From positions 3,378,001-3,442,000 of the forward strand of contig NZ_CP045422.1 in NCBI RefSeq assembly GCF_014926585.1: 64,000 nucleotides of DNA, written 5' to 3'. The position numbers and the translations under genes are program-made. This document shows, piece by piece, positions 5,640-30,891 of this stretch. How positions within the stretch are numbered: position 1 is the stretch's first letter; the number at the start of each line of letters is the position of its first letter. The notes below the pieces were generated by a model. It worked only from the letters and a program-made list of their open reading frames with translations, was not told the origin of the DNA and made no database searches. This DNA comes from Devosia beringensis (GTDB lineage Bacteria > Pseudomonadota > Alphaproteobacteria > Rhizobiales > Devosiaceae).

Positions 5640-6550
5640 CCCTTGCTTCCCTCACCAAGCCCTGGGCCGCCACCAGCTATGGTTTTCTCGACGCCTCGGC
5701 CAAGCGCGAGCTGCGCCGCAAGATGCTCAAGGCCATCGCCGTGCCCGGCTGCCAGATGCCCTATGCCAGCCGCGAAGTGCCCATGGCGCGCGGCTGGGGC
5801 ACGGGGGGGCTGCAGGTCACGCTGACCCTGGTCAATCCGCAATCGACCATCAAAGTTATCGACCAGGGCGCCGATGACGGCGTCAATGCCGCCTCGATCC
5901 GCCGCTTCATCAGCCGTGTTTCGGGCGCGGCGGAAACCTGGGATACGCTGGAAGCCTCGATCATCCAGTCGCGTCACCGCGTGCCGGAAGAGACCCTGGC
6001 TGCCGATCAGATCCTGGTGCTGCAGGTGCCCAATCCCGAGCCGCTGCGCGGGGTAGAGCCCAATATGTCGATCGCCCGGCAGATGCATGCCGATGCCGAT
6101 TATGGCCGGCTCTGGCTGACGCTCTATGAGCAGATGGTGCGCAAGGGCCGTATCATGCAGGGCGCCGCCTATCCGAGCCTGGTCAATGGCCGCCACGTGA
6201 TGACGCCCTCGCCGATCCCGCGCTGGGACGTTCCCAAGCTCAATATGGCGCAGCACCTTACCTTCCTGTCGGCTGGCCGGGAAAAACGCCTGCATGCCGT
6301 GCCGCCCTTCACGCGAGTGGAGCCCCTAGTGTTTTCCGACCGGCCCTATCGCGTCGAGGATCACGCCGAGCTGGTGTGCCGCCGCTCGGGCGTCGCCGGC
6401 TATTTCATGAACGAGATCCCGCAGGACCAGGGCGGCTCGGTGTTCGAGATTTCCGACAGCAATCTGGGCATCAAGGCCATTCGCCAGGCAGAAGGCGAAG
6501 TGGTGGCGATCGGCACCACCTGGTACCGGAACGGGGAGTATTCGGCATGA
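5636..6550 (+). CDS. phnJ: PhnJ homolog lacking the radical-SAM cysteine cluster
   Basis: A 304-residue PhnJ homolog, unmistakable from the blocks GWGTGGLQVTLTLV, KVIDQGADDGVN, IIQSRHRVPEETL, PSPIPRWDVPKLNM and AGREKRLHAVPPFTRVE. In E. coli PhnJ, Cys241, Cys244 and Cys266 hold the 4Fe-4S cluster and Cys272 is catalytic. By hand alignment Cys241 is kept (C248 here), but Cys244 is S251, Cys266 is I272 and Cys272 is G278 (block VFEISDSNLG). The protein also carries about 25 extra C-terminal residues. The reading frame is clean, so this is substitution, not a frameshift. It may have a different chemistry or be inactive; all neighbours are intact. Confidence 0.9.
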   Translation: MTLASLTKPWAATSYGFLDASAKRELRRKMLKAIAVPGCQMPYASREVPMARGWGTGGLQVTLTLVNPQSTIKVIDQGADDGVNAASIRRFISRVSGAAETWDTLEASIIQSRHRVPEETLAADQILVLQVPNPEPLRGVEPNMSIARQMHADADYGRLWLTLYEQMVRKGRIMQGAAYPSLVNGRHVMTPSPIPRWDVPKLNMAQHLTFLSAGREKRLHAVPPFTRVEPLVFSDRPYRVEDHAELVCRRSGVAGYFMNEIPQDQGGSVFEISDSNLGIKAIRQAEGEVVAIGTTWYRNGEYSA

Positions 6551-7368
6551 GCATCGACATGACTTCGGCGCCGGCCGAACTGCTGCCGCCGCAGCTGATG
6601 CAGACAGAGGCGCTGCTGACCATGCGCGGCGTGTCCCGCCGCTATGGCGCGGTGCGCGCGCTGCGCCAGGTCGACGTCAATGTCTATCCGGGCGAGGTAC
6701 TTGGCATTGTCGGGGAAAGCGGTTCGGGCAAGTCGACCCTGCTGCGCATGATGAACCTCGAGGATACGCCCGATGCCGGCGATTACCGCCTGCGCCTGCC
6801 CGGGCGCGACGATGGCAACCTGTTTGCACTGGGGCGCTACGAGCGGCGCATGCTGTGTGCGCACCATATTGGCATCGTCTACCAGAACCCGCATCTGGGC
6901 CTGCTGATGCGGCACAGTTCGAGCGGCAATGTCGCCGAACGGTTGCTCATCGCCGGCGAGCGCAGCTTTGAGGTCTTGCGCGGCAAGGCACGGGACGCGC
7001 TCGACGCTTCCGAATTCCCGCTGTCGCGCATGGATGCGCGGCCGGCCGAACTGTCGGGCGGCATGCAGCAGCGCGTGCAGCTGGCCAAAGCCATTGCCCT
7101 CGAACCGGCGCTGCTGCTGCTGGACGAGCCGACCACGGGGCTCGACGTCAGCGTGCAGGCCCTGGTGCTCGATACGCTCAAGCGCCTGCAGCGCGACCGC
7201 CGCATTACCATGGTGCTGGTTAGCCACGATCTGGGTGTCATCCGCACCATGGCGGACCGCGTGCTGGTCATGCGGCATGGCGAGGTGGTGGAGCAGGGCT
7301 TGTGCGACCAGGTGTTCCAGGACCCACAGCACCCCTATACCCAGCAACTCGTCCACGCCAAGCTCTAG
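6547..7368 (+). CDS. phnK: C-P lyase-associated ABC-type ATPase PhnK
   Basis: PhnK is a soluble ABC-family ATPase that docks on the PhnGHIJ core and is not a transporter subunit. The ATG at 6547 overlaps the phnJ stop (ATGA) and gives 273 residues. Motifs: Walker A GESGSGKST at about 56-64, signature LSGGMQQRVQLAKA near 169, Walker B LLLLDEPTTGLD near 190, and the C-terminal VFQDPQHPYTQQLV that resembles oligopeptide-type ATPases. A longer upstream reading frame exists inside phnJ but the ATGA start is far more likely. Confidence 0.9.
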   Translation: MSIDMTSAPAELLPPQLMQTEALLTMRGVSRRYGAVRALRQVDVNVYPGEVLGIVGESGSGKSTLLRMMNLEDTPDAGDYRLRLPGRDDGNLFALGRYERRMLCAHHIGIVYQNPHLGLLMRHSSSGNVAERLLIAGERSFEVLRGKARDALDASEFPLSRMDARPAELSGGMQQRVQLAKAIALEPALLLLDEPTTGLDVSVQALVLDTLKRLQRDRRITMVLVSHDLGVIRTMADRVLVMRHGEVVEQGLCDQVFQDPQHPYTQQLVHAKL

Positions 7369-7376
7369 GGGCCGCC

Positions 7377-8114
7377 ATGACACACGACAACCATCTGCCC
7401 CTGCTGCGCGTCGACGGGTTGAGCAAGACCTTCCGCATGTATCATCTCGACAGCATGCTGCATGCCTTCGAGGGGATCAGCTTTGACCTGCATGCGGGCG
7501 AGTTCCTGCTGCTCAAGGGTCGCAACGGCGCCGGCAAGTCGACGCTGCTGCGTACGCTGTGGCGCAGCTATCTGCCCGTCGCCGGCCATATCTGGTACCA
7601 GTCCAGCCTGGGCACCATCGACCTGGCGCGCGCCGCCGATGTCGACATCGCGTTGTTGCGTCGCCAGGAAATCGGCTTTGTCACGCAGTTCCTCAATGCC
7701 CGTCCTCGCGTTGCCGCCCAGGACATTGTCGCCGAACCGCTGCGGCTGGCCGGCTATGCGCCCGATGAGGCCCTGGAGCAGGCGCGGCACTGGCTGGGCG
7801 AGTTCGGCGTCCGCCCCGAACTCTGGCGCGCCTATCCCAGCACGTTTTCCGGCGGCGAACAGCAGAAGGTCAACCTGGCCCGCGCGCTGATCCTGCCGCA
7901 GCGCCTGCTGCTGCTCGACGAGCCAACCGCTTCGCTCGATGTCGGTGCCCGGGCCGCGCTGGTGCGGCGTCTCGCCGACCTCAAGGCCGCCGGCGTGGCC
8001 ATTGTCGGGGTATTTCACCATCCGGGCGATGTCGCCGACCTCATCGATCGCGAGATCGATCTGGTCACCCATCCTGTTTCTTTTCCGCGCGAGTTGACCC
8101 ATGTGGCTGTCTGA
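7377..8114 (+). CDS. phnL: C-P lyase-associated ABC-type ATPase PhnL
   Basis: A 245-residue ABC ATPase, the second ATPase of the pathway. Walker A GRNGAGKST lies at about 48-56, signature FSGGEQQKVNLARA near 158, Walker B LLLLDEPTASLD, and the H-loop region VGVFHHPG has the family's HHPG in place of the usual SHD. ATG 7377 lies 8 bases after the phnK stop with GGGG as a weak ribosome site. It overlaps phnM by 14 bases. Confidence 0.9.
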   Translation: MTHDNHLPLLRVDGLSKTFRMYHLDSMLHAFEGISFDLHAGEFLLLKGRNGAGKSTLLRTLWRSYLPVAGHIWYQSSLGTIDLARAADVDIALLRRQEIGFVTQFLNARPRVAAQDIVAEPLRLAGYAPDEALEQARHWLGEFGVRPELWRAYPSTFSGGEQQKVNLARALILPQRLLLLDEPTASLDVGARAALVRRLADLKAAGVAIVGVFHHPGDVADLIDREIDLVTHPVSFPRELTHVAV

Positions 8115-9288
8115 TTTCCGCATTGTCCTGGCCGACCGCGTCATCGACCACGGCGCCTTGCGCGTCGAGGATGGCCTGATCGTCGAGGTCCGCCAGACCC
8201 CGGTCGAGCAGGCCGATATCGACGGGCAGGGCCTGCTGCTGATGCCCGGCATGATCGACATGCATGGCGACATGATCGAACGCGAGATCGAGCCGCGCCC
8301 CAATGTCCGGATGCCGATGGAAATGGGCCTGCGCGACCTTGACCGCAAGCTGGCCAATTCGGGCATCACCACCGCCTATGCGGCAGTATCGTTTAGCCCC
8401 GGATCGACCTATGGCCACATGCGCTCCTATGATTTCACCAGCGAAATGATCCGGGCGCTGCGCGCGCACCAGGCCGAGCTGCTGGTCGACCACCGCGTGC
8501 ATGCCCGCTTCGAGGTGACGTTTCCGGCAGCCCTGTCGGTGGTCAAGGAACTGATCGCCGAAGGCGCGGTGGATCTGATCTCGCTGTGCGACCATACGCC
8601 GGGGCAGGGCCAGTATCGCGATCTGGCGCTGCAGGCGGCCAATCTGGCCAAGTCCAAGGGCATTACCCTCGAGCAGGCGCGGGCAAATCTCGACCAGCGT
8701 ATCCGCGACCGGAAGGAAACAGCGGGCGACCTGAGCGCCACGCTGCGCGCCATTGCCCAATATTGCGCGCTCCATGGCGTGCCACTGGCCAGCCATGACG
8801 ACGACACGGTGGAAAAGGTGGTGCAGATGCAGGCGCTGGGTGCCCATATCAGCGAGTTCCCGGTGACGCTCGAGGCGGCACGCGAAGCCCATAGCCGCGG
8901 TATGCTCAATGCCATGGGCGCCCCCAATGCGCTGCGTGGCATCTCCTATTCGGGCAATCTGTCGGCCCGCGAGGCCCATGCCCATGGCCTGCTCGATTTG
9001 CTGGCTGCCGACTACCACCCGTCCGCCATGCTGCCTGCGGTACTGGTGCTGGGCAAGACCGATCCAGATGGCCTCGCCGGCGCCACCCGGCTGGCGACAC
9101 GCAATCCGGCGAGCGTCCTGGGGCTTGAGGATCGCGGCGAAATCGCCCTGGGCCTGCGCGCCGATCTCATCATCGCCGACGATACCGGGGTGGGGCATGT
9201 GCGCACCACCATCTGCAGGGGCGCCGTGGCCTATTCCGACGGCAGCATGGTCCCGATCCGTCACCGTGGTGTCATTCGAATGAGTTAA
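8101..9288 (+). CDS. phnM: PhnM-type amidohydrolase (ribose phosphonate triphosphate diphosphatase family)
   Basis: A 395-residue amidohydrolase at the place of phnM, which in E. coli removes diphosphate from the ribose phosphonate triphosphate. The metal-binding start is PGMIDMHGDMIEREIEPRPN, so H-G-D-M stands where the E. coli type has H-T-D-N. A later SLCDHTPGQGQY block, the ASHDDDT block and a late YHPSAML fit the amidohydrolase fold. It thus seems to be a diverged subgroup. Last gene of the first phn unit; no phnN kinase follows. Its last codons overlap the control region of phnC. Confidence 0.85.
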   Translation: MWLSDFRIVLADRVIDHGALRVEDGLIVEVRQTPVEQADIDGQGLLLMPGMIDMHGDMIEREIEPRPNVRMPMEMGLRDLDRKLANSGITTAYAAVSFSPGSTYGHMRSYDFTSEMIRALRAHQAELLVDHRVHARFEVTFPAALSVVKELIAEGAVDLISLCDHTPGQGQYRDLALQAANLAKSKGITLEQARANLDQRIRDRKETAGDLSATLRAIAQYCALHGVPLASHDDDTVEKVVQMQALGAHISEFPVTLEAAREAHSRGMLNAMGAPNALRGISYSGNLSAREAHAHGLLDLLAADYHPSAMLPAVLVLGKTDPDGLAGATRLATRNPASVLGLEDRGEIALGLRADLIIADDTGVGHVRTTICRGAVAYSDGSMVPIRHRGVIRMS

Positions 9289-9297
9289 CGGTGTCAT
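9269..9297 (+). promoter_or_regulatory. PHO-box-like repeat array plus palindrome upstream of phnC
   Basis: GTGTCAT occurs at 9269-9275 and again at 9291-9297, exactly 22 bases apart, with a weaker unit ATGAGTT between them, giving an 11-base period as in PHO boxes. Overlapping it, TCATTCGAATGAGT (9272-9285) repeats the palindrome found before phnF. The site covers the phnM stop and lies 62-90 bases before phnC. Confidence 0.5.
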
Positions 9298-9358
9298 GCA
9301 AGCCGGTTAGCTTCAACACAAGCCTGACGACCCGACGACCTCGAAAAAAGGTAGTGAC

Positions 9359-21969: not shown

Positions 21970-23001
21970 TTAACTGGCGAGGTCGACGCGTCCGAGGCTG
22001 CCGATTTCGGTCAATGTGCCCAAGAAACGCCCGCCGGGATCAAAGCCGAGGGACTTGACCGGCTGGCCATCCGCAACCCGCATCGGCAGCATGTCGCCGT
22101 CTTCGGCGCGACAAAGCTGCACCGATCCATCGCGGTAGCCGAGAGCGAGCATGGGCGCGCTGGGATGCCAGGCCAGGGCGGTGACCTGCATACCCCGTTC
22201 TCCCAGACTCATGGCCGATGTGCCCATGGGGCCGTCCCGACCGGCAAACGACCAGACGATGGCGCCATCGGCACCCGACGAGGTCAGCAGCCGTCCATCG
22301 GCCGACCAGGACAGCGATCGCGGCTTGGTGGGATAGCCGGACATGGCCATATTGGCGGCGTCCTTGATGCGCCAGCCATGGAGTGCGTTCTCGCTCATCA
22401 CTGAAACGACGAACCGGCCATTGGGGTTGAAAGTTACCCCGATATGGGAGCCTTTCCAAGCCAGCAGCCGCGGGGCGCGTTTGGGATGGGTCACATCGAT
22501 GAGGCTGACGCCACCGTAATGGGCGGCGGCAAGGCTGGTGCCCCTTGCATCAAAGGCCAGGCCCGCAGCGGTCGATGGCATCTGCTTGCTGTGGAGATCG
22601 TCCTGCTGCCACAGCAAGACCTCCTTGCCCACGCCAGCGGCGATCATTCCCGTGCGGCCCACAGCGACAGCATCGATCCAGCGTCCGGGACGGTGGAGCA
22701 ATTGTTCGCTGCCTTCGGCTGTCGCGGCCATGACCCGGCCATCGTCACCGCCGGTAATGACCCGGCCAGTGGTCGGATCTGCTGCAAGGGCGAGGATGGC
22801 GCCTTGATGCAGCGCCGCGCTCAACAGCTCGCCACTCAAGACATCCGTGAAATGCAGCCGCCCGTCGCCACCTGATGCCACCAGCGTCTGGCCGAGCCAG
22901 ACCAGCCCGGTGCCCGGTGCGCCAAGTTGCCATTCCGCCACCCGAGCGCGGATCGCGGGCTCGGGAACGGCGACATCAGCCCCGGCCATCATGCCTGGCA
23001 C
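21970..23001 (-). CDS. WD40-repeat protein
   Basis: A 343-residue beta-propeller protein with about seven repeats showing GGDDGRV, WSADGRLL-type and SSGADGAIVWSF-type ends. Such genes commonly sit next to CobW/COG0523 metallochaperone genes in Hyphomicrobiales, and here it overlaps the 3' end of a CobW-type remnant by 13 bases. The upstream GTPase is broken by an insertion element, so expression may now depend on another promoter. The molecular role is unknown. Confidence 0.82.
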   Translation of the reverse strand: MPGMMAGADVAVPEPAIRARVAEWQLGAPGTGLVWLGQTLVASGGDGRLHFTDVLSGELLSAALHQGAILALAADPTTGRVITGGDDGRVMAATAEGSEQLLHRPGRWIDAVAVGRTGMIAAGVGKEVLLWQQDDLHSKQMPSTAAGLAFDARGTSLAAAHYGGVSLIDVTHPKRAPRLLAWKGSHIGVTFNPNGRFVVSVMSENALHGWRIKDAANMAMSGYPTKPRSLSWSADGRLLTSSGADGAIVWSFAGRDGPMGTSAMSLGERGMQVTALAWHPSAPMLALGYRDGSVQLCRAEDGDMLPMRVADGQPVKSLGFDPGGRFLGTLTEIGSLGRVDLAS

Positions 23002-23449
23002 TGCCGGAAGCCGTCGCGCAGCAGCTGCTCGGGCAGGTCGCGACCGATGAAGACCAGGCGGCTCTGGCGCGGTTCATCTTGTTTCCAGGGGCGCTGGTAG
23101 TCGCCCTCAAGCAGCATGTGCACGCCCTTCACCACAAAGCGCTCCGGGTCATCCTTGAAGGCGATGATGCCCTTCATGCGCAGAATGTCGGTACCGAAGG
23201 TCTGCGTCACCTGGCGGATCCAGGTGGAGAAAGCCTTTTCGTTGAGCGGGACCTCGCTCACCAGCGAGACGCTGCCGATTTCCTCGTCATGGTCGTGGGC
23301 ATGGTCTTCGGTCAGGAAGTTCGGCTCCACCTCGAGCACGTGCTGCAGATTGAAGGCGTCGCGCCCCAGGACAAGGTCGAGCGGCAGGTCGCAGCGCTCG
23401 GCATGTTCGATAGCGGCCAGCGGGTTGACCTTGCGGATGCGGGTGACGT
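22989..23449 (-). pseudogene. CobW/COG0523-type GTPase, 5' part lost at IS junction
   Basis: The remaining C-terminal part (about 150 residues) reads IRKVNPLAAIEHAERCDLPL, then VLGRDAFNL, the His/Asp-rich metal-binding TEDHAHDHDEE, and the CobW C-terminal domain ending GRDLPEQLLRDGFRQCQA. The GTPase domain is absent: the insertion element begins directly after, and the far flank of the element is unrelated. COG0523 proteins are zinc or other metal chaperones. An internal start could make only the C-terminal domain. Confidence 0.85.
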
Positions 23450-23461
23450 TGCCCCCAACTT

Positions 23462-24391
23462 CTATCCAGCGTGAAGTAGACTCGGGCGGTTAGTTTGGTC
23501 GATCTGGCCGGGGTGAGCGACGGGGGCTGGCGCGGAGCTGGTCATTGAGCGGAGCGGCAGATCCCGTCGCGGGTTGAAGGTGTCGGCGTATTCGGCAGGC
23601 GTCATCCAACCCAGCCGCGAGTGCGGCCGGTGCAGATTGTAATCGGCGCGCCAAGACGCCACGGTGGCCCGGACGTGAGCAAGCGATGGGAACAGGGTCT
23701 CGTTGAGCATTTCGTCCCGCAGCCGGCCGTTAAAGCTCTCGATGAAGGCATTCTGGATCGGCTTGCCAGGGGCAATGTAGTGCCAGTCGATCCCCATCCG
23801 GTCAGCGAAGCCCAGGATGGCATTGGACGTGAACTCAGTCCCATTGTCGCTGACGATCATCTTGGGGCGTCCTCGAGTAGCCATCAGCGTCTCCAGCTCT
23901 CTGGCAACGCGCAGACCAGACAGCGAGGTGTCGGCAACCAAGGTCAGGCATTCGCGTGTGCAGTCATCGACCACTGTCAGCACCCGGAAGCGCCGACCGT
24001 CGGTCATCTGGTCGGAGACGAAGTCCAGGGACCAGCGTTCGTTGGGCGCCATTGGGATCAGCATCGGCGCCCTGGTGCCCATGGCACGCTTGCGGCCGCC
24101 TCGACGGCGCACCATCAGCTTCTCCTCGCGATAGATCCGGAACAGGCGCTTGTGATTGACCTGATACCCTTCCCGCCGCAGCAGGACGTGCAGCCGCCGA
24201 TAGCCAAACCGTCGCCGCTCATGGGCAATGGCCTTCATCCGGTCGCGCAGCACGATGTCATCGGTTCGCAGCGCCTGGTAGCGCATCGTCATCCGGCAAC
24301 ATCCCAATACTCGGCACGCCCGCCGCTCGCTCATCCCATAGGCAGTCTGGAGATGGGCGACAGCATCCCGCTCGGCGGCGGGCGCTACCAT
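23462..24391 (-). CDS. IS3-family transposase OrfB (DDE integrase)
   Basis: A 309-residue catalytic part of the transposase, normally made as an OrfAB fusion. The DDE triad is visible as D in [10 protein letters not shown] in IVSDNGTEF and E in [13 protein letters not shown]; the helix-turn-helix-like N-terminus is [17 protein letters not shown]. Reading starts at the ATG overlapping the A7 run. It overlaps orfA by 7 bases. Confidence 0.93.
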
Positions 24392-24651
24392 TTTTTTCCA
24401 AGAAGATCTTTCAGCGCGGCATTATCGAGCATGCTGTCGGCCAGCAGCTTCTTGAGCCGGGCGTTCTCGTCCTCAAGCGCCTTCAGTCGTCGGGCCTCGC
24501 TGACGTCCATGCCGCCATACTTGGCCTTCCATTTGTAGATGCTGGCATTGCTGACGCCATGCTTGCGGCACAGGTCGGCAACTGGAACGCCGGCCTCCTG
24601 CTCCTTCAAGATCGCAATGATCTGCTCTTCGGTGAACCTGGTTCGCTTCAT
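24385..24651 (-). CDS. IS3-family transposase OrfA (HTH)
   Basis: An 88-residue DNA-binding subunit. It begins [20 protein letters not shown], has the [23 protein letters not shown] and a leucine-zipper-like tail [20 protein letters not shown] for multimerisation. It ends at the slippery run shared with orfB. Confidence 0.93.
24391..24397 (-). promoter_or_regulatory. A7 slippery site for programmed -1 frameshift
   Basis: Seven A residues (minus strand) lie in the overlap of orfA and orfB. This is the standard IS3-family site for a -1 shift producing the OrfAB transposase. Confidence 0.7.
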
Positions 24652-24709
24652 CTCTGGTCCTTCTGATGGGGCCAGAGCCTACTTCAAACTGGATTAGGCG
24701 CAGGGGGCA

Positions 24710-25181
24710 ACGTCACGCCATATCCGACAGAAATGGCCGCTTCCACTTTGGCTCCCTCATTCGCTGCACGGTCGAGAGATACGATCAAAAGTCGACTGAA
24801 TGGATGGGGACGGGCGGTGGCATGCTCGACAAGTTCACCAAAACGCCCTTCGGCCAGCAGGTGCTATCCAACTGCATAGGGGCGCACTTGACGGAGTTGT
24901 CTCCCAGGACAAAGCTCGTGGTCATGCTCGGGATGGGAGCAGGTGGAAACTATGTCGAGGAGTGTCGACGCGCATATGTAGCTTCGAGACCGCAAGCGAC
25001 ATGGCGCCAGATCAATGAGGTTGCCTATTCGGACGGGCGGCTGACAGTGGTTCACACCGAGCACTTCAAGTCTCAAGGGGCACTGCTGCCGAACTGGCTT
25101 TCAGGAGATGCTCATCCCAGGGGCAAGCTCGGGTTGATGGCACGCGAGGCCGTTAAGAACGCAGTTGGGACCTTGTTGTGA
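24710..25181 (+). pseudogene. Uracil-DNA-glycosylase-like protein, N-terminus removed by the IS
   Basis: About 155 residues remain, open to the IS edge. The stretch TKLVVMLGMGAGGNYVEECR resembles the core strand and helix of UDG-fold proteins, and TVVHTEHFKSQGALLPNWL could be the family's late His motif; the N-terminal motif with the water-activating residue is missing. The frame continues into the IS end and offers an ATG at 24666, so a hybrid product is possible. Its stop overlaps the GTG of the helicase gene (GTGA), showing that the two genes form an operon. Confidence 0.5.
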
Positions 25182-27211
25182 CCCTGCTTTATGCCGCCAC
25201 CTTCACCAAAGCGCTCGACCGGCTCACGGCCGCCGAACAGAAGCAGGTGAAGATCACCGCGTTCGACCTCGCACAGGATGAGAGCGGCAACGGCATGCAG
25301 TTGCATCGGGTGGAATCGGCCGCGGGGTTCTGGACTGCCCGCGTCAGCCAGGACATCCGCATCGTGCTGCACAAGGACCGCGAGCACACCCTGCTGGCCT
25401 GGGTGGGGCACCACGATGAAGCCTATCGCTGGGCCAAGCGGCGGAAGCTTGTGCCACACGAGCGCACCGGCGCCATGCAGCTGGTAGAAGTCGTCGAGCG
25501 GGTCGAGGAGCGGCCGGCGCCATTCGAAGCAACCGCCCAAGAAGTGCCGACACCGGTGGCCGTGGAACGGCCGTTCGCTGACCTCCCCGATGACGCGCTT
25601 CTCGATGTGGGTGTGCCACGCGAGTGGCTCGACGCCGTCCGAGATACAGATGTCGTCCGTGTGGACGATCTCTTTGCGTCCTTGCCCGACGAGGCGGCCG
25701 AAGCGCTGCTCAACTTCGCAACCGGGGGGCGCCTCTCCGATCATGTCGCCATAAAGGCTGCTCCGGGTACCGATCCCTTCACGCATCCAGATGCGCAGCG
25801 TCGCTTCCGTGCTGTCGAGGGGCTGGAAGAACTCAAGGCAGCGCTCGATGCGCCCTTTGCCCAATGGGCGGTGTTTCTCCATCCCGCGCAGCGGGCACCA
25901 GTGACCCGAGAGTGGAATGGGCCGGCCCGTGTCTCGGGCTCGGCTGGTACCGGCAAGACGATCGTGGGGCTGCATCGCGCCGTCCATCTGGCATCACGTC
26001 AATATGCCAGAGTGCTTCTCACCACCTTCTCAAAGACTTTGGCCAAGAGCCTTTCGGGGAAGGTCGAATTGATGACCGAGGCTTTGCCGGATGCACGTCA
26101 GCGCCTCTCGGTGCGTGCCATCGATCAGGCGGTGCATGAACTCTACACTGGCGCTTTCGGACAGCCGAACCTGGCAACGACTGCGCAGATCCGTGCGGCC
26201 ATCAAGGCAGCAGCAGACACTGGACTGGGTGCTGGCCATTCGCCCGAATTCCTGTTCGAGGAATGGGAAGAGCTGGTCGACGCCTGGGGGCTGCATGACC
26301 TTGAATCCTATGCCCGGGTGCCCCGAATTGGGCGGCGAACACGCCTTGGACCGAAGCAGCGAGAAGGCGCCTGGGAAGTCTTCGCCTTCGTTCGCAAGCG
26401 TCTTGCGGAACGGAACGTGATGACGTCGGCAGACATCTATGGACGGCTGTCCGCGTGGGTCAATGCCGGTGGCCAACTGCCGTTCACCCACATCGTTGTT
26501 GATGAGGCCCAGGATCTGTCCGTTGCCCAAGCTCGATTTCTAGCAGCTGCGGGCAGGGCAGGTGGGCCGGACTCGCTCTTCTTCACTGGCGACCTGGGCC
26601 AACGCATCTTTCATCTGCCATTTTCCTGGGCCCGGCTAGGCCTCGACGTCCGAGGCCGGGCACAAGTGCTCAAGGTCTGCTATCGCACTTCGCACCAGAT
26701 CCGCAGTACGGCCGATCGCTTGCTCGAGCCGGAGATTGTCGATCTCGATGGCAATCAAGAGAGCAGGCGCGGCACCGTATCAGTATTCGATGGGCCCGCG
26801 CCACTTGTGCGCTTGTTTCCCAACGAAGATGCGGAAACGGCCGGCGTGTCAGAGTGGCTACGTGCAAGACTCGATGAGGGGATGAATGATCAGGAGCTTG
26901 CGGTGCTCGTGCGCGGTCAGGAGCAGCTTGGCCGCGCCCGTGCTGCCTTGAAGACGGCTGGCGTCGATATCCCGGTCATCACCATGCACGACGCGAAAGG
27001 GCTAGAGTTTCGAGCGGTGGTCGTGATGGCACTGGATGACGACGTTCTGCCCGACCCTGAACGCCTTGCCGGAGTCGGAGATGTCGCCGACATTGCCGCC
27101 ATCCAGGATACCGAACGCCACCTGCTCTATGTGGCGGCGACCCGCGCGCGTGATCGGCTGATGCTTTCAGGTGTAGTGCCGGGTTCCGAATTCCTTGATG
27201 ACATCCGGTAG
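25178..27211 (+). CDS. UvrD/Rep-type helicase with RelE-like N-terminal domain
   Basis: A 677-residue fusion. Residues 1-95 look like a RelE/ParE-fold domain: TFTKALDRLTAAEQKQVKI, HRVESAAGFWTARVSQDIRI, and VGHHDEAYRWAKRR. From about 240 on it is a superfamily 1 helicase: GSAGTGKT near 254 (motif I), VVDEAQD near 441 (II), FTGDLGQRI (III), CYRTSHQIRS (IV), TMHDAKGLEF (V) and LYVAATRARDRL near 650 (VI). The GTG start is coupled to the glycosylase-like gene. A repair or phage-defence role is likely, but no known system was recognised with certainty. Confidence 0.85.
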   Translation: MTLLYAATFTKALDRLTAAEQKQVKITAFDLAQDESGNGMQLHRVESAAGFWTARVSQDIRIVLHKDREHTLLAWVGHHDEAYRWAKRRKLVPHERTGAMQLVEVVERVEERPAPFEATAQEVPTPVAVERPFADLPDDALLDVGVPREWLDAVRDTDVVRVDDLFASLPDEAAEALLNFATGGRLSDHVAIKAAPGTDPFTHPDAQRRFRAVEGLEELKAALDAPFAQWAVFLHPAQRAPVTREWNGPARVSGSAGTGKTIVGLHRAVHLASRQYARVLLTTFSKTLAKSLSGKVELMTEALPDARQRLSVRAIDQAVHELYTGAFGQPNLATTAQIRAAIKAAADTGLGAGHSPEFLFEEWEELVDAWGLHDLESYARVPRIGRRTRLGPKQREGAWEVFAFVRKRLAERNVMTSADIYGRLSAWVNAGGQLPFTHIVVDEAQDLSVAQARFLAAAGRAGGPDSLFFTGDLGQRIFHLPFSWARLGLDVRGRAQVLKVCYRTSHQIRSTADRLLEPEIVDLDGNQESRRGTVSVFDGPAPLVRLFPNEDAETAGVSEWLRARLDEGMNDQELAVLVRGQEQLGRARAALKTAGVDIPVITMHDAKGLEFRAVVVMALDDDVLPDPERLAGVGDVADIAAIQDTERHLLYVAATRARDRLMLSGVVPGSEFLDDIR

Positions 27212-27576
27212 GACATTTGGGGCAGATCTGCTGCACAAGGTCAGATGCGGGCTATTGCTTCACGGCAGTCTTACTTCAACAGCTGAAGGGTAGGAACCAA
27301 CCCGAGCTCCAATCCAAGCGGCCCCGCTGCCCGGTGCCAATCAACCGTGTTGTTGCCTTTATATGGTAGGCGTTCTAGCTGGCTCGTTTGCCCGCACGTT
27401 CAATGTTGAGGCTGTCCGTCCGTGGATGGAAGTGCTCCCTCCAATGATGGAAATTCTATGGGCGGCGTCACGACAGGCGCGCCTCCCAATGTACAGCAAG
27501 GGAGTGGTGGTGTCATTATACCCGCACTCTGAACACGAACCGGTCGCGGCCCTGTCCCAATCCAACCCAAAATGAG

Positions 27577-27600
27577 AAAGCCCCGGTTTCCCGGGGCTTT
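27577..27600. terminator. Bidirectional intrinsic terminator
   Basis: AAAGCCCCGG (27577-27586) and CCGGGGCTTT (27591-27600) with loop TTTC form a 10-bp perfect stem flanked by A on one side and T on the other. It may end the helicase transcript 366 bases upstream. Confidence 0.7.
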
Positions 27601-27799
27601 CGCCTTCAATCGAAAGTTGAGGCCAACTGACGTGAACATTGAGTGCGCACAAATCGGACTTTTGACCATCCTTGTGGGGCGCTCACACACACAAGCGCCC
27701 CGTCAGAGAGACGCATTGGCAGTCGTCGTCCCTCACCTGTAGCACTCCGAGCACGTCCCGATTTTGCCCAGTGCCCCCTGGTCGTCCCTAAACCTATTG

Positions 27800-27824
27800 A
27801 GGTGAGGCAAACTTTGCCTCACCT
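27800..27824. repeat. 25-bp palindrome
   Basis: AGGTGAGGCAAA and TTTGCCTCACCT flank a single C: 12-bp perfect arms. The one-base centre fits a dimeric repressor site better than a terminator; no T-tract follows. No adjacent regulator gene is visible. Confidence 0.5.
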
Positions 27825-28123
27825 TTCGGCGTCTGTTGCCAGGAATCTGGTCAAACCTTGTGGGCAGCGACAACAATGAGCTGCAGCTCCCGCCCATGAG
27901 CACCCGGTTGTAGTTCCGCGAATGTCGCACTTTGGACAGGTGCCAATGCACACAATCGCCCTCGGCCGAACCCAAAGCAGCGACATCTACGGCATTTGGT
28001 CTGGAAGGTCCGAATTCAACACAGATAACCAAAAGGGACCTAAGCCTCTGAAATTGTGAAGGTGTATGTTGCAGACGGGCATGACTTTGGAAAATCCGTA
28101 TCGCTCGCAACAGCACCGGCGTC

Positions 28124-28567
28124 CTAGTCTTCCTCGTCGTCCTCGACGTCGGTGAGATAGACCGAGACCTCGATATCGATGCCGAAGCCGGCAATGGCGG
28201 CGACGACATGGGCGGGCAGGCGGGTCGACATGGCTTCGCCATGCTCGGGATAATCAAAGGCCAGGTCGAGCACGGCCTTGCCGATGCGGCGATCGTCCAG
28301 CATGGCGGCAATGGCCGGGCCAGACCGTTCGGCCAGCTCGAGCAGCGCGCGCACCGGATTGGCCACTGGCACGTCGACCTGGGCGTAGAAACTGCCCTCG
28401 GCGTCTTCGGGTTCGAAGCGGCTGGTCAGCTGCTTGAGGGCGCCATCAAGTTCGAGCTGCAGCTTGTCGCTGTCGGTCAGCGGGCTCAGCACGCCCGCCT
28501 GCGGCAGCGGCCGCAGCGTCACGCCCGACAGGCGCAGGGCAATGGCGAAGGGCGCGAACTGGGTCAT
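28124..28567 (-). CDS. Hypothetical protein downstream of rlmB
   Basis: A 147-residue protein without recognised domain. It starts MTQFAPFAIALRLSGVTLRP and ends in an acidic tail (TDVEDDEED). ATG 28567 overlaps the rlmB stop by one base (TGATG), so it is co-translated with rlmB. The regular codon pattern and coupling make it a real gene; function unknown. Confidence 0.75.
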   Translation of the reverse strand: MTQFAPFAIALRLSGVTLRPLPQAGVLSPLTDSDKLQLELDGALKQLTSRFEPEDAEGSFYAQVDVPVANPVRALLELAERSGPAIAAMLDDRRIGKAVLDLAFDYPEHGEAMSTRLPAHVVAAIAGFGIDIEVSVYLTDVEDDEED

Positions 28568-29319
28568 CAGGAACGTCCGGCAGTGGCCGCAAACAGAGCG
28601 ATGGCGGCGGCGTTTGAAACATTGAGCGACTTGATCGGGCCGGGCATGTCGAGCTTGACCACTTCGTCGCAGAGCTCGCGAGTGCGCTGGCGCAGGCCCT
28701 TGCCCTCGGCGCCCATGACGATGGCCATGGGCTGGCTGTCGGTGCGCGGCTTGAGCTGCAGTTCTGATTCAGAATCAAAGCCGAGCACCAACATGCCGCG
28801 GCTCTTGAGCTTTTCGAGCGCGTCGCCCAGGTTGCGCACCTCGATCATCGGCACCAGGTCGAGCGCGCCGGAGGCCGATTTGGCCATCACGCCGGTCTCG
28901 CGCGGCGAGTGGCGGGCCGTGGTGATGACGGCATCAGCGCCAAAGGCGCAGGCAGTGCGCAGGATGGCGCCCACATTATGCGGGTCGGTGATGTGATCGA
29001 GCACCACCACCAGCTGCAGCGGATGGATGTCATCGAGCCCGAAGCGGGTCACCGGATCGACTTCAAGCGCAGCGCCCTGGTGCACGGCGTCGTCGCCGAG
29101 CAGCCGGTCGAGCTCCTTGGGCGTGGTTTCCTTGACCGGAACCTTGCCGATTTCGCCGGATTCCCTGAGGCGGTTCAGCGCATTGGGCGTCGCCAGCAGC
29201 ACCTTCTTGATGCGGTTGGGATTGTCCAATGCGGCGCGCACGGTGTGCATGCCGTAAAGATAGACCGGACCCTCATCGGGATTGTAGCGCGCCTTGGGCG
29301 GAAATTTGTTGAAGCTCAT
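28567..29319 (-). CDS. rlmB: 23S rRNA (guanosine-2'-O)-methyltransferase RlmB
   Basis: A 250-residue SPOUT methyltransferase that methylates a P-site guanosine (G2251 in E. coli) of 23S rRNA. The N-terminal substrate-binding part includes YLYGMHTVRAAL; the knotted catalytic domain shows NVGAILRTACAFGAD, AIVMGAEGKGL and SLNVSNAAAIALF, the three SPOUT motifs. Length and motifs are complete. The tRNA-Tyr 3' end lying upstream matches the usual chromosomal neighbour, here separated by an integrated element. Confidence 0.95.
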   Translation of the reverse strand: MSFNKFPPKARYNPDEGPVYLYGMHTVRAALDNPNRIKKVLLATPNALNRLRESGEIGKVPVKETTPKELDRLLGDDAVHQGAALEVDPVTRFGLDDIHPLQLVVVLDHITDPHNVGAILRTACAFGADAVITTARHSPRETGVMAKSASGALDLVPMIEVRNLGDALEKLKSRGMLVLGFDSESELQLKPRTDSQPMAIVMGAEGKGLRQRTRELCDEVVKLDMPGPIKSLNVSNAAAIALFAATAGRS

Positions 29320-29493: not shown

Positions 29494-30891
29494 ATGGGCC
29501 TTTGGCTGTCCAACAAACTGTCCAACATTGAGGTTCCGCGCATGAGGCGCACGACCGAAGCGAAGCCGCATAAAAGAGCGGGGATATGGTACCTCGTCCG
29601 CCGCATCCCCGCAGAGTTCGCCCACCTCGATCGACGATCCTCCCCGCTTAAACTGTCCACCAATATTGCGGTAGCTGATGATCCCAAGGCCATCCGCGCC
29701 CGCCAGGTGGTGGCCCAGCTCAACCAGAACCTTGAGGCCTATTGGCGCGGCCTGCGCGATGGTCAGTCGGCCGAGGCCCGCATCCGCTTCGAGGCTGCCC
29801 AGAAGCGCGCCAAGGCGCTGGGGGTCAATTACCAGACCGTCGAGGAGCTCCACGCCGGCCACGCCATTGCCGACACCCTGGCCCGCGTCGAGCTGCTGCT
29901 CAACCGCCAGGCCATCGACAGCGAGAACGACGTCGCGGCCGTGCTGGGCGGCGAGGATAGGCCCAGACTGCGCGTGTCTGACCTGGTCGCCGAGTTTGAA
30001 ACCATCCACTCGGCCAAGCTCACGGCGTTCTCTGAGGCGCAGCGCAAGCGGTGGCGCAGCCCCAAGCTCAAGGCCGCCACCAACTTCATCGAGGCGATCG
30101 ACGACAAGTACCTCGAAGAGCTCACCCGCGCCGATGCCGTGACCTTCCGCGAATGGTGGCAGGTCAAGCTGGTCAGGGATCGCCTTGAGATAGGGACGGC
30201 CAACAAGGACTTTGGCCACATGAACAAGATGCACCGCGATATCGACATGGCGCACCAGCTGGGCCTGAAACCGGTATTCAGCCGGCTGCGCCTGGAAGGG
30301 GAGACGACGGGCAGCCGCGCGGCCTTCACGCCCGAGCAGGCGGTGGCCATCGTACTGTCGCCCGACCTGGACAGACTCAACGCCGAGGCCCGCGATATCC
30401 TGCTGATCGTCGCCGAGCTGGGCATGCGGCCGTCCGAGGTGTGCGGGCTGCTGGAGCAGAACATTCAATTGGCGGCGCCGATTCCGCTCGTGCAGATCCG
30501 GCCGGAGGGCAGGCAGCTCAAGAACCCGCAATCCGAGCGAGACTTGCCGCTGACAGGCAATGCCCTGGCGGCGCTGCAACGGCACCCGAAAGGCTTCCCC
30601 ACATACCGAGACAAGGCCGATACGTTGTCCGCCACCTTGGCCAAGGCCCTAAAAAAGGCGAACCTTATTCAGAGCAAGCACCAGTCGCTATACAGCTTCC
30701 GGCACTCTTTTGAAGATCGGCTGATCGAGGAAGAAACCCCCGACAAGGTCATCGCCTCGATGATGGGGCATAAGTTCCAGCGCCCGAAATACGGCAAGGG
30801 CCCCAGCCTCGAGCTCAAGTTGCGATGGTTGCAAAGGGTGGAGCTGCCGCTCAGACCGAATGCAGACCTCACTCCCACATCTAGTGGGTGA
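29494..30891 (+). CDS. int: Tyrosine recombinase (phage/ICE integrase)
   Basis: A site-specific recombinase of up to 465 residues (449 if the ATG at 29542 is used, which starts MRRTTEAKPHKRAG and resembles other integrase starts). Catalytic-domain landmarks: Arg in ELGMRPSEVCG near 311, the YSFRHSFEDRL box near 400, MMGHKFQ near 425 and the nucleophilic Tyr in RPKYGKG near 432. It lies just inside the tRNA-Tyr att copy, the usual place for the integrase of a genomic island. Confidence 0.9.
   Translation: MGLWLSNKLSNIEVPRMRRTTEAKPHKRAGIWYLVRRIPAEFAHLDRRSSPLKLSTNIAVADDPKAIRARQVVAQLNQNLEAYWRGLRDGQSAEARIRFEAAQKRAKALGVNYQTVEELHAGHAIADTLARVELLLNRQAIDSENDVAAVLGGEDRPRLRVSDLVAEFETIHSAKLTAFSEAQRKRWRSPKLKAATNFIEAIDDKYLEELTRADAVTFREWWQVKLVRDRLEIGTANKDFGHMNKMHRDIDMAHQLGLKPVFSRLRLEGETTGSRAAFTPEQAVAIVLSPDLDRLNAEARDILLIVAELGMRPSEVCGLLEQNIQLAAPIPLVQIRPEGRQLKNPQSERDLPLTGNALAALQRHPKGFPTYRDKADTLSATLAKALKKANLIQSKHQSLYSFRHSFEDRLIEEETPDKVIASMMGHKFQRPKYGKGPSLELKLRWLQRVELPLRPNADLTPTSSG

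Follow-up and report, generated by a model that had tools for sequence, protein, structure and literature searches.

A RelE domain fused to a UvrD-type helicase is encoded in the window, the whole 64,000-nucleotide stretch of the Devosia beringensis genome analysed here, and the explanation that best accounts for this gene and its surroundings, at a probability of roughly 0.6 for the complete reading including its mechanism, is that it was the last gene of a type III-like defence cassette and has been orphaned. That the locus is a relic affiliated with a type III-like restriction cassette is the firmer part of this reading, and we consider it very probable. The features on which the argument draws are listed here with their window coordinates and, where assigned, their strand.

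22989-23443, minus strand: 3' remnant of cobW, 5' part missing, reading frame open up to the IS end
23444-24715: IS3-family element, 1272 bp, ends TGACGTTGCCCCC / GGGGGCAACGTCA, delimited by flank comparison of seven copies
24385-24651 and 23462-24391, minus strand: transposase frames of the IS3-family element
24717-25181, plus strand: 3' remnant of a probable UDG-fold gene, 154 aa, matching residues 110-257 of a 259-aa relative
25178-27211, plus strand: RelE-UvrD fusion helicase, 677 aa, uninterrupted ORF with a GTG start
25178-25450, plus strand: predicted RelE/YoeB/YafQ-fold domain, residues 1-91 (model, fold search, alignment, phrog_1213)
25814-27202, plus strand: SF1/UvrD helicase region, approximately residues 213-675 (Pfam and conserved motif columns)
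29494-30891: phage-type integrase gene (phage-integrase family)

The original prediction had proposed a RelE/ParE-like fold for residues 1-95 of the protein, followed by SF1 helicase motifs, and both proposals hold. In the 677-aa protein Pfam recognizes UvrD_C (E 4.5e-17) and UvrD-helicase (E 2.1e-12), with the SF1 motifs at conserved positions, namely the segments that we take to be Walker A (residues 254-261, with K260), DEAQD (442-446), and the C-terminal motifs (603-610 and 651-658). Pfam alone gives no match in the first 100 residues, and PHROG 1213, a 'RelE-like toxin' family, covers residues 2-84 with an E-value of 4e-4. A structure model of residues 1-115, built with 52 sequences (pLDDT 88.9, pTM 0.81), retrieves RelE, YoeB, and YafQ in Foldseek, with nine matches at E <= 0.001, the best being 3bpq at E 9e-5, and VIA-align superimposes it on YafQ over 84 residues with a Z score of 12.2 and an rmsd of 2.0. 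By this model the N-terminal domain has the RelE fold, over residues 1-91. Compared with RelE, YoeB, YafQ, and Cami1, the last being a RelE-fold protein seen on the 70S ribosome, the domain aligns at Z scores of approximately 8.6-12 with the catalytic candidates in register, although it is tethered to a helicase rather than held by an antitoxin.

Residues R61, H78, H79, A82, Y83, and W85 are invariant in all 52 homologues of the alignment, which come from many phyla. Profile (HMM) alignment to solved toxins places R61 opposite an Arg and H78 opposite a His of a YoeB, and matches R61, H78, and Y83 with the R, H, and Y of Thermus RelE; the general-base position, E46 in YoeB, is His in the window protein when the alignment is read by eye. 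In the available text of PMC12620021, E46, R65, H83, and Y84 of YoeB and K52, R61, R81, and Y87 of RelE are given as catalytic or essential. The domain therefore combines the RelE fold with the candidate catalytic Arg, His (or Arg), and Tyr of the RelE/ParE toxin superfamily, and, given the invariant residues and the fold, we regard the RelE observation as right and RNase competence, as judged from these residues, as plausible.

The fusion as such is already known: Bell et al. (2025, PMC12458937) described it as ArmD, a component of ARMADA type II. ArmD resembles the window protein in its N-terminal RelE-like domain and GajB-like UvrD helicase, and in that its gene closes a defence operon with a methyltransferase; its RelE part is called a predicted RNase, defence in E. 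coli requires each of the four ARMADA II genes and the Walker A lysine of ArmD, and the defence is non-abortive, infected cells staying intact (PMC12458937). The partners of ArmD, however, are a BrxHII-like helicase, a PglX-like methyltransferase, and a YprA-like helicase, whereas those of the window clade are a type III-like Res and Mod. In the neighbourhood test a YprA-like helicase (ArmC) directly upstream was absent from the window and from all 44 rows of its clade, and the window protein, which shares the RelE and UvrD fusion, falls outside the ArmD clade. Membership in ARMADA II was rejected on both clade and partners.

The phylogenetic separation comes from relatives gathered from 69 genome-contig loci, 64 plasmid records (11 plasmid regions around helicase matches were inspected), viral contigs, and 385 genomes of the class. 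A quick, midpoint-rooted tree of 87 RelE-UvrD proteins, which omits duplicate loci, proteins below 500 aa, and matches below 140 bits, shows two main groups, one linked to a YprA-type helicase and including ArmD, the other linked to type III-like restriction genes and including the window protein. A 44-row clade (SH-aLRT 100) holds all 34 loci with a same-strand Mod upstream, two loci in which the pair is inverted, and eight others, the window among them; 32 of the 33 YprA-linked rows, including that of an E. coli plasmid (L106), lie in a separate 38-row clade. The exception, a YprA-linked Thermus plasmid (L107), branches on the restriction side, though not within the 44-row clade, and counts against the preferred reading.

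Direct tblastn searches for Mod and Res covered 46 loci. Mod was found in 37 of the 44 clade members, comprising the 34 same-strand loci with L041, L159, and L169, and the seven without it are the window, a Qipengyuania plasmid (L101), and five loci whose contigs leave at most 613 bp before the gene. Wherever at least 2 kb of upstream sequence was available, Mod was present in every clade member but the window and that one plasmid. Res was detected in 28 of the 34 same-strand loci (30 of the 46 tested); of the other six, five reach the contig end close to Mod, and L151 has no Res despite ample sequence. A cluster of two antisense ORFs (c12) was considered as another family and rejected, since tblastn identified it as Res on the opposite strand. 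The Rhizobium Res scores 1178 bits against NF046055 (cut-off 800) and the Rhizobium Mod 1213 bits against PADLOC MTase_III (PDLC03632); in L104, Mod carries DPPY and Res carries GSGKT and DEAH. The genes upstream of the relatives' helicases thus match those of type III restriction-modification systems (BPTD_3080 family), but the clade adds a RelE-helicase and a variable slot, and the window has neither Res nor Mod. We know of no classic type III system with a RelE-helicase as third gene or with such a slot.

What appears to be new here is the type III-linked clade, of which the window shows only a relic. No description of the clade, of a Res-Mod-RelE-UvrD operon, or of the slot was found in the literature searched, which covers few subscription papers, and the name BPTD_3080 was likewise absent from it; the words 'helicase' and 'UvrD' do not occur in the main text of a review of RelE/ParE multidomain toxins (PMC11980606). 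With a separate restriction-linked clade in existence, the fusion would seem to be a portable second-stage module recruited by different DNA-recognition systems.

The slot lies between Mod and the helicase. In 15 of 34 loci this gap contains no ORF of at least 60 aa, and in the other 19 it contains at least one, some of these ORFs being short or antisense and perhaps not genes. Above the Pfam cut-off, slot genes encode HIRAN and GIY-YIG domains (L045), SNF2 helicases (L146 and L148), and an AAA domain with a subtilase (L154); GIY-YIG appears below the cut-off in L032, an intact cassette from Sphingomonas sp. IBVSS2, and in L108, and HNH-like (L036) and PD-(D/E)xK-like (L041) slot genes were read by eye without support from profiles. 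In L154 the AAA ATPase and subtilase (S8) occupy positions 6039-9332 on the minus strand, between Mod and the RelE-helicase. New nucleases and glycosylases might be sought in this slot. In six related loci the slot gene stop and the helicase start overlap by four bases, as they do in the window, and on this ground we read the UDG-fold remnant as a slot gene; the glycosylase-like gene of the window seems once to have held the slot.

That upstream ORF (24666-25181) shares GTGA with the helicase start at 25178-25181, as had been noted, and had been taken for a whole gene with UDG-like stretches. It is not whole: its first 17 codons lie inside the IS3-family element, and by comparison with the 259-aa relative the N-terminal 42% is absent. 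A family model built on six sequences (pLDDT 67, pTM 0.73) gave, in a second look with VIA-align, human TDG as its best match (Z 8.5, 164 aligned, rmsd 4.0), and 48 of the 50 VIA-align matches shown are UDG, TDG, MUG, SMUG, or UdgX entries. Foldseek alone returned nothing at E <= 0.001 with this model, and hhalign of the family against UDGs gave probabilities of 1.5-3.9% against 0.2-1.0% for reversed controls, which is not significant; the modelled UDG fold is for these reasons likely rather than proven. The UDG likeness thus stands for the fold of the family and fails at the level of sequence profiles, none of which recognizes the family as UDG. The segment VLGFSKG, kept in the relatives, is deleted from the window copy; HPS occurs in L164 and L210 and HxxHF in other relatives, and the remnant does not show the UDG motif A region with the HPS motif, as we presume these motifs to be named.

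Members of the UDG-fold family were found in eight plasmid records, in 3 of 385 class genomes and 10 of 397 order genomes (the genome studied being counted in both), and at five loci in viral contigs, three of these contigs being common to both viral searches. In two of the viral contigs (L200:4865-6774 and L201:4865-6813) the gene follows an integrase-like ORF at a distance of 27 bp, which points to mobile-element cargo. In a Cereibacter plasmid a UDG-like gene (L165:6347-7261) adjoins a broken copy of the family; its annotation as 'uracil-DNA glycosylase' was rejected as support, the annotated gene being a separate neighbour.

It had been proposed that the glycosylase and the RelE-helicase together make a two-gene system of sensing and processing, and the GTGA overlap and the UDG-superfamily fold of the upstream family speak for this, as does the fact that DNA glycosylases can be anti-phage. 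Brig1 is an example (PMC11078745) and shares with this family the UDG-superfamily fold and an occurrence in defence islands, though the likeness is one of fold alone and the window copy is without its N-terminal 42%. Against such a system, the upstream gene is truncated, tblastn found a RelE-UvrD gene near none of the UDG-fold relatives (0 of 17 loci), and the slot in the helicase relatives holds other genes or none, the conserved partners of the helicase being the type III-like Res and Mod. We have rejected the pair on its truncated gene and on relatives without a helicase link, and consider it very unlikely. The same 0 of 17 means that the former full cassette rests on the clade and on the GTGA overlap.

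We return to the preferred reading, the orphan of a type III-like cassette, and to the way in which the orphan may have arisen. The IS3-family element has seven copies of approximately 100% identity in the genome and four more at 71%; all seven share 28-30 bases beyond 23472-24686 on each side, so that the element runs from 23444 to 24715 and has the inverted ends TGACGTTGCCCCC. One end lies in cobW and the other in the UDG-fold gene. The accessory junction of the original prediction is borne out by the adjoining IS, by the phage-type integrase at 29494-30891, and by the sparse distribution of full-length helicase homologues (2 of 101 genomes). A search of the whole genome for Mod gave a single weak match spanning 75 residues, and with no clear Mod in the genome the window copy looks like the orphan of an IS-linked deletion. 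The lost half of the UDG-fold gene has no other copy in the genome (one match per search), and, with positions read by eye, none of the four CobW-domain matches lies beside a listed IS copy where the detached 5' part of cobW might be sought. A search of 12 genomes for the neighbouring WD40 gene, as a guide to the empty site in relatives, returned nothing.

We infer an ancestral cassette of Res (~1000 aa), Mod (~930 aa), a slot gene, here with the UDG fold, and the RelE-UvrD helicase as last gene. The IS3-family element would have inserted in or beside cobW, and an adjacent deletion or rearrangement would then have taken out Res and Mod together with the 5' part of the slot gene, leaving the helicase intact without its partners; this IS-linked deletion would probably have been recent. 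The helicase itself shows no decay: the window protein differs at 2 of 164 near-invariant columns, within the range of the other 43 clade rows (0-14), and the loss of partners on this measure looks recent. The window IS copy has no target duplication, which speaks for the preferred reading but is weak evidence, as at most three of the seven copies have one when the flanks are read by eye.

Full-length helicase homologues occur in 2 of 101 genomes, the present one included, 61 of the 101 being of the same genus, and a class-wide search found a homologue at E <= 1e-60 in 18 of 385 genomes, again counting its own; viral contigs gave two relatives. The gene is accessory and linked to defence rather than to housekeeping, as the defence link first proposed had implied, with a sparse distribution, plasmid and defence contexts, and Res/Mod partners. 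For a housekeeping helicase of UvrD/Rep/HelD type there are the NCBIfam hits to PcrA, DNA helicase IV, and HelR, which are weak and each far short of its cut-off, but no conserved core locus across the genus was seen and the relatives lie in plasmid and defence contexts; with homologues in so few genomes, we have rejected this reading on distribution and give it almost no weight. Gabija offers another UvrD-like defence helicase, with a best GajB match at E 6.9e-18, though here a RelE domain is added, no GajA-like match was found among the window ORFs scanned, and the relatives' neighbourhoods contain Res/Mod or YprA.

The intact ORF with its conserved motifs and a pN/pS of approximately 0.2 against relatives, at synonymous sites near saturation, would also suit a window gene that still acts by itself, with no restriction partners, as a helicase for sensing DNA ends or for repair. 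The Qipengyuania plasmid relative without Mod, which has a RecB-like nuclease and a DUF4011 protein among its neighbours, fits this as well. On the other side, the window protein has a longer end branch (0.28) than the other rows of its six-row group (0.03-0.18), full-length copies were found in 2 of 101 genomes, and a crude scan of 24300-28200 found no promoter-like site on the helicase strand, and we think this an improbable account of the gene.

In the preferred reading the intact system would have begun with Mod and Res marking and cutting unmethylated incoming DNA. The SF1 helicase would then load at DNA ends, at gaps, or on single-stranded DNA, and its ATP-driven movement would release the RelE domain fused to it for RNA cleavage close to the genome of the invader. 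The slot gene would supply a second DNA-attacking activity. If this were true, restriction would hit the DNA and the transcripts of the invader together. Helicase-gated cleavage of RNA, which we base on analogy, is a tentative step of this scheme to which we give less than an even chance. For the clade as a whole we suggest, with similar reserve, that the RelE-helicase may be a third core subunit beside an interchangeable effector slot, recognition by Mod and Res being relayed to RNA cleavage. Whether restriction that senses foreign DNA extends to cutting RNA is now a testable question.

It is also possible, if somewhat less probable than gating, that the RelE domain is a docking module through which the helicase attaches to the ribosome, RNA, or Res/Mod, defence being purely DNA cleavage. 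Cells protected by ARMADA show no sign of death or of a metabolic shutdown, and a RelE mutant is not among the mutations described in the available text (PMC12458937); no antitoxin was recognized among the adjacent ORFs scanned with profiles. Docking is harder to reconcile with the invariance of R61, H78, and Y83 in 52 of 52 homologues from many phyla, and with a RelE part that is 86-88% conserved across the five closest relatives against 77-78% for the helicase part, more than a dock seems to need. The non-abortive character of ARMADA (PMC12458937) nevertheless argues against toxin-driven shutdown, and GajB, the nearest characterized helicase, neither unwound nor bound DNA in the experiments given in PMC10681800; by analogy the two together would favour a local or structural role, which weighs against the mechanism of the preferred reading.

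Further observations concern the surroundings and other relatives. Only some of the seven near-identical IS copies have a target duplication, which hints at IS-linked rearrangements in this genome. The integrase gene at 29494-30891 adjoins an rRNA methyltransferase-like gene (28567-29319), and no tRNA was found in the window. In L101 (NZ_CP098496.1) a close relative of the helicase has a TM0106-type RecB-like nuclease and a hypothetical gene on one side and a DUF4011 protein on the other; Res and Mod are both absent, and this is perhaps another host system for the fusion. In three Thermoactinomycetaceae loci (L063, L065, and L093) the RelE-helicase follows a family of 1082-1327-aa proteins, two of the loci sharing three more genes, and these loci possibly represent a third operon type.
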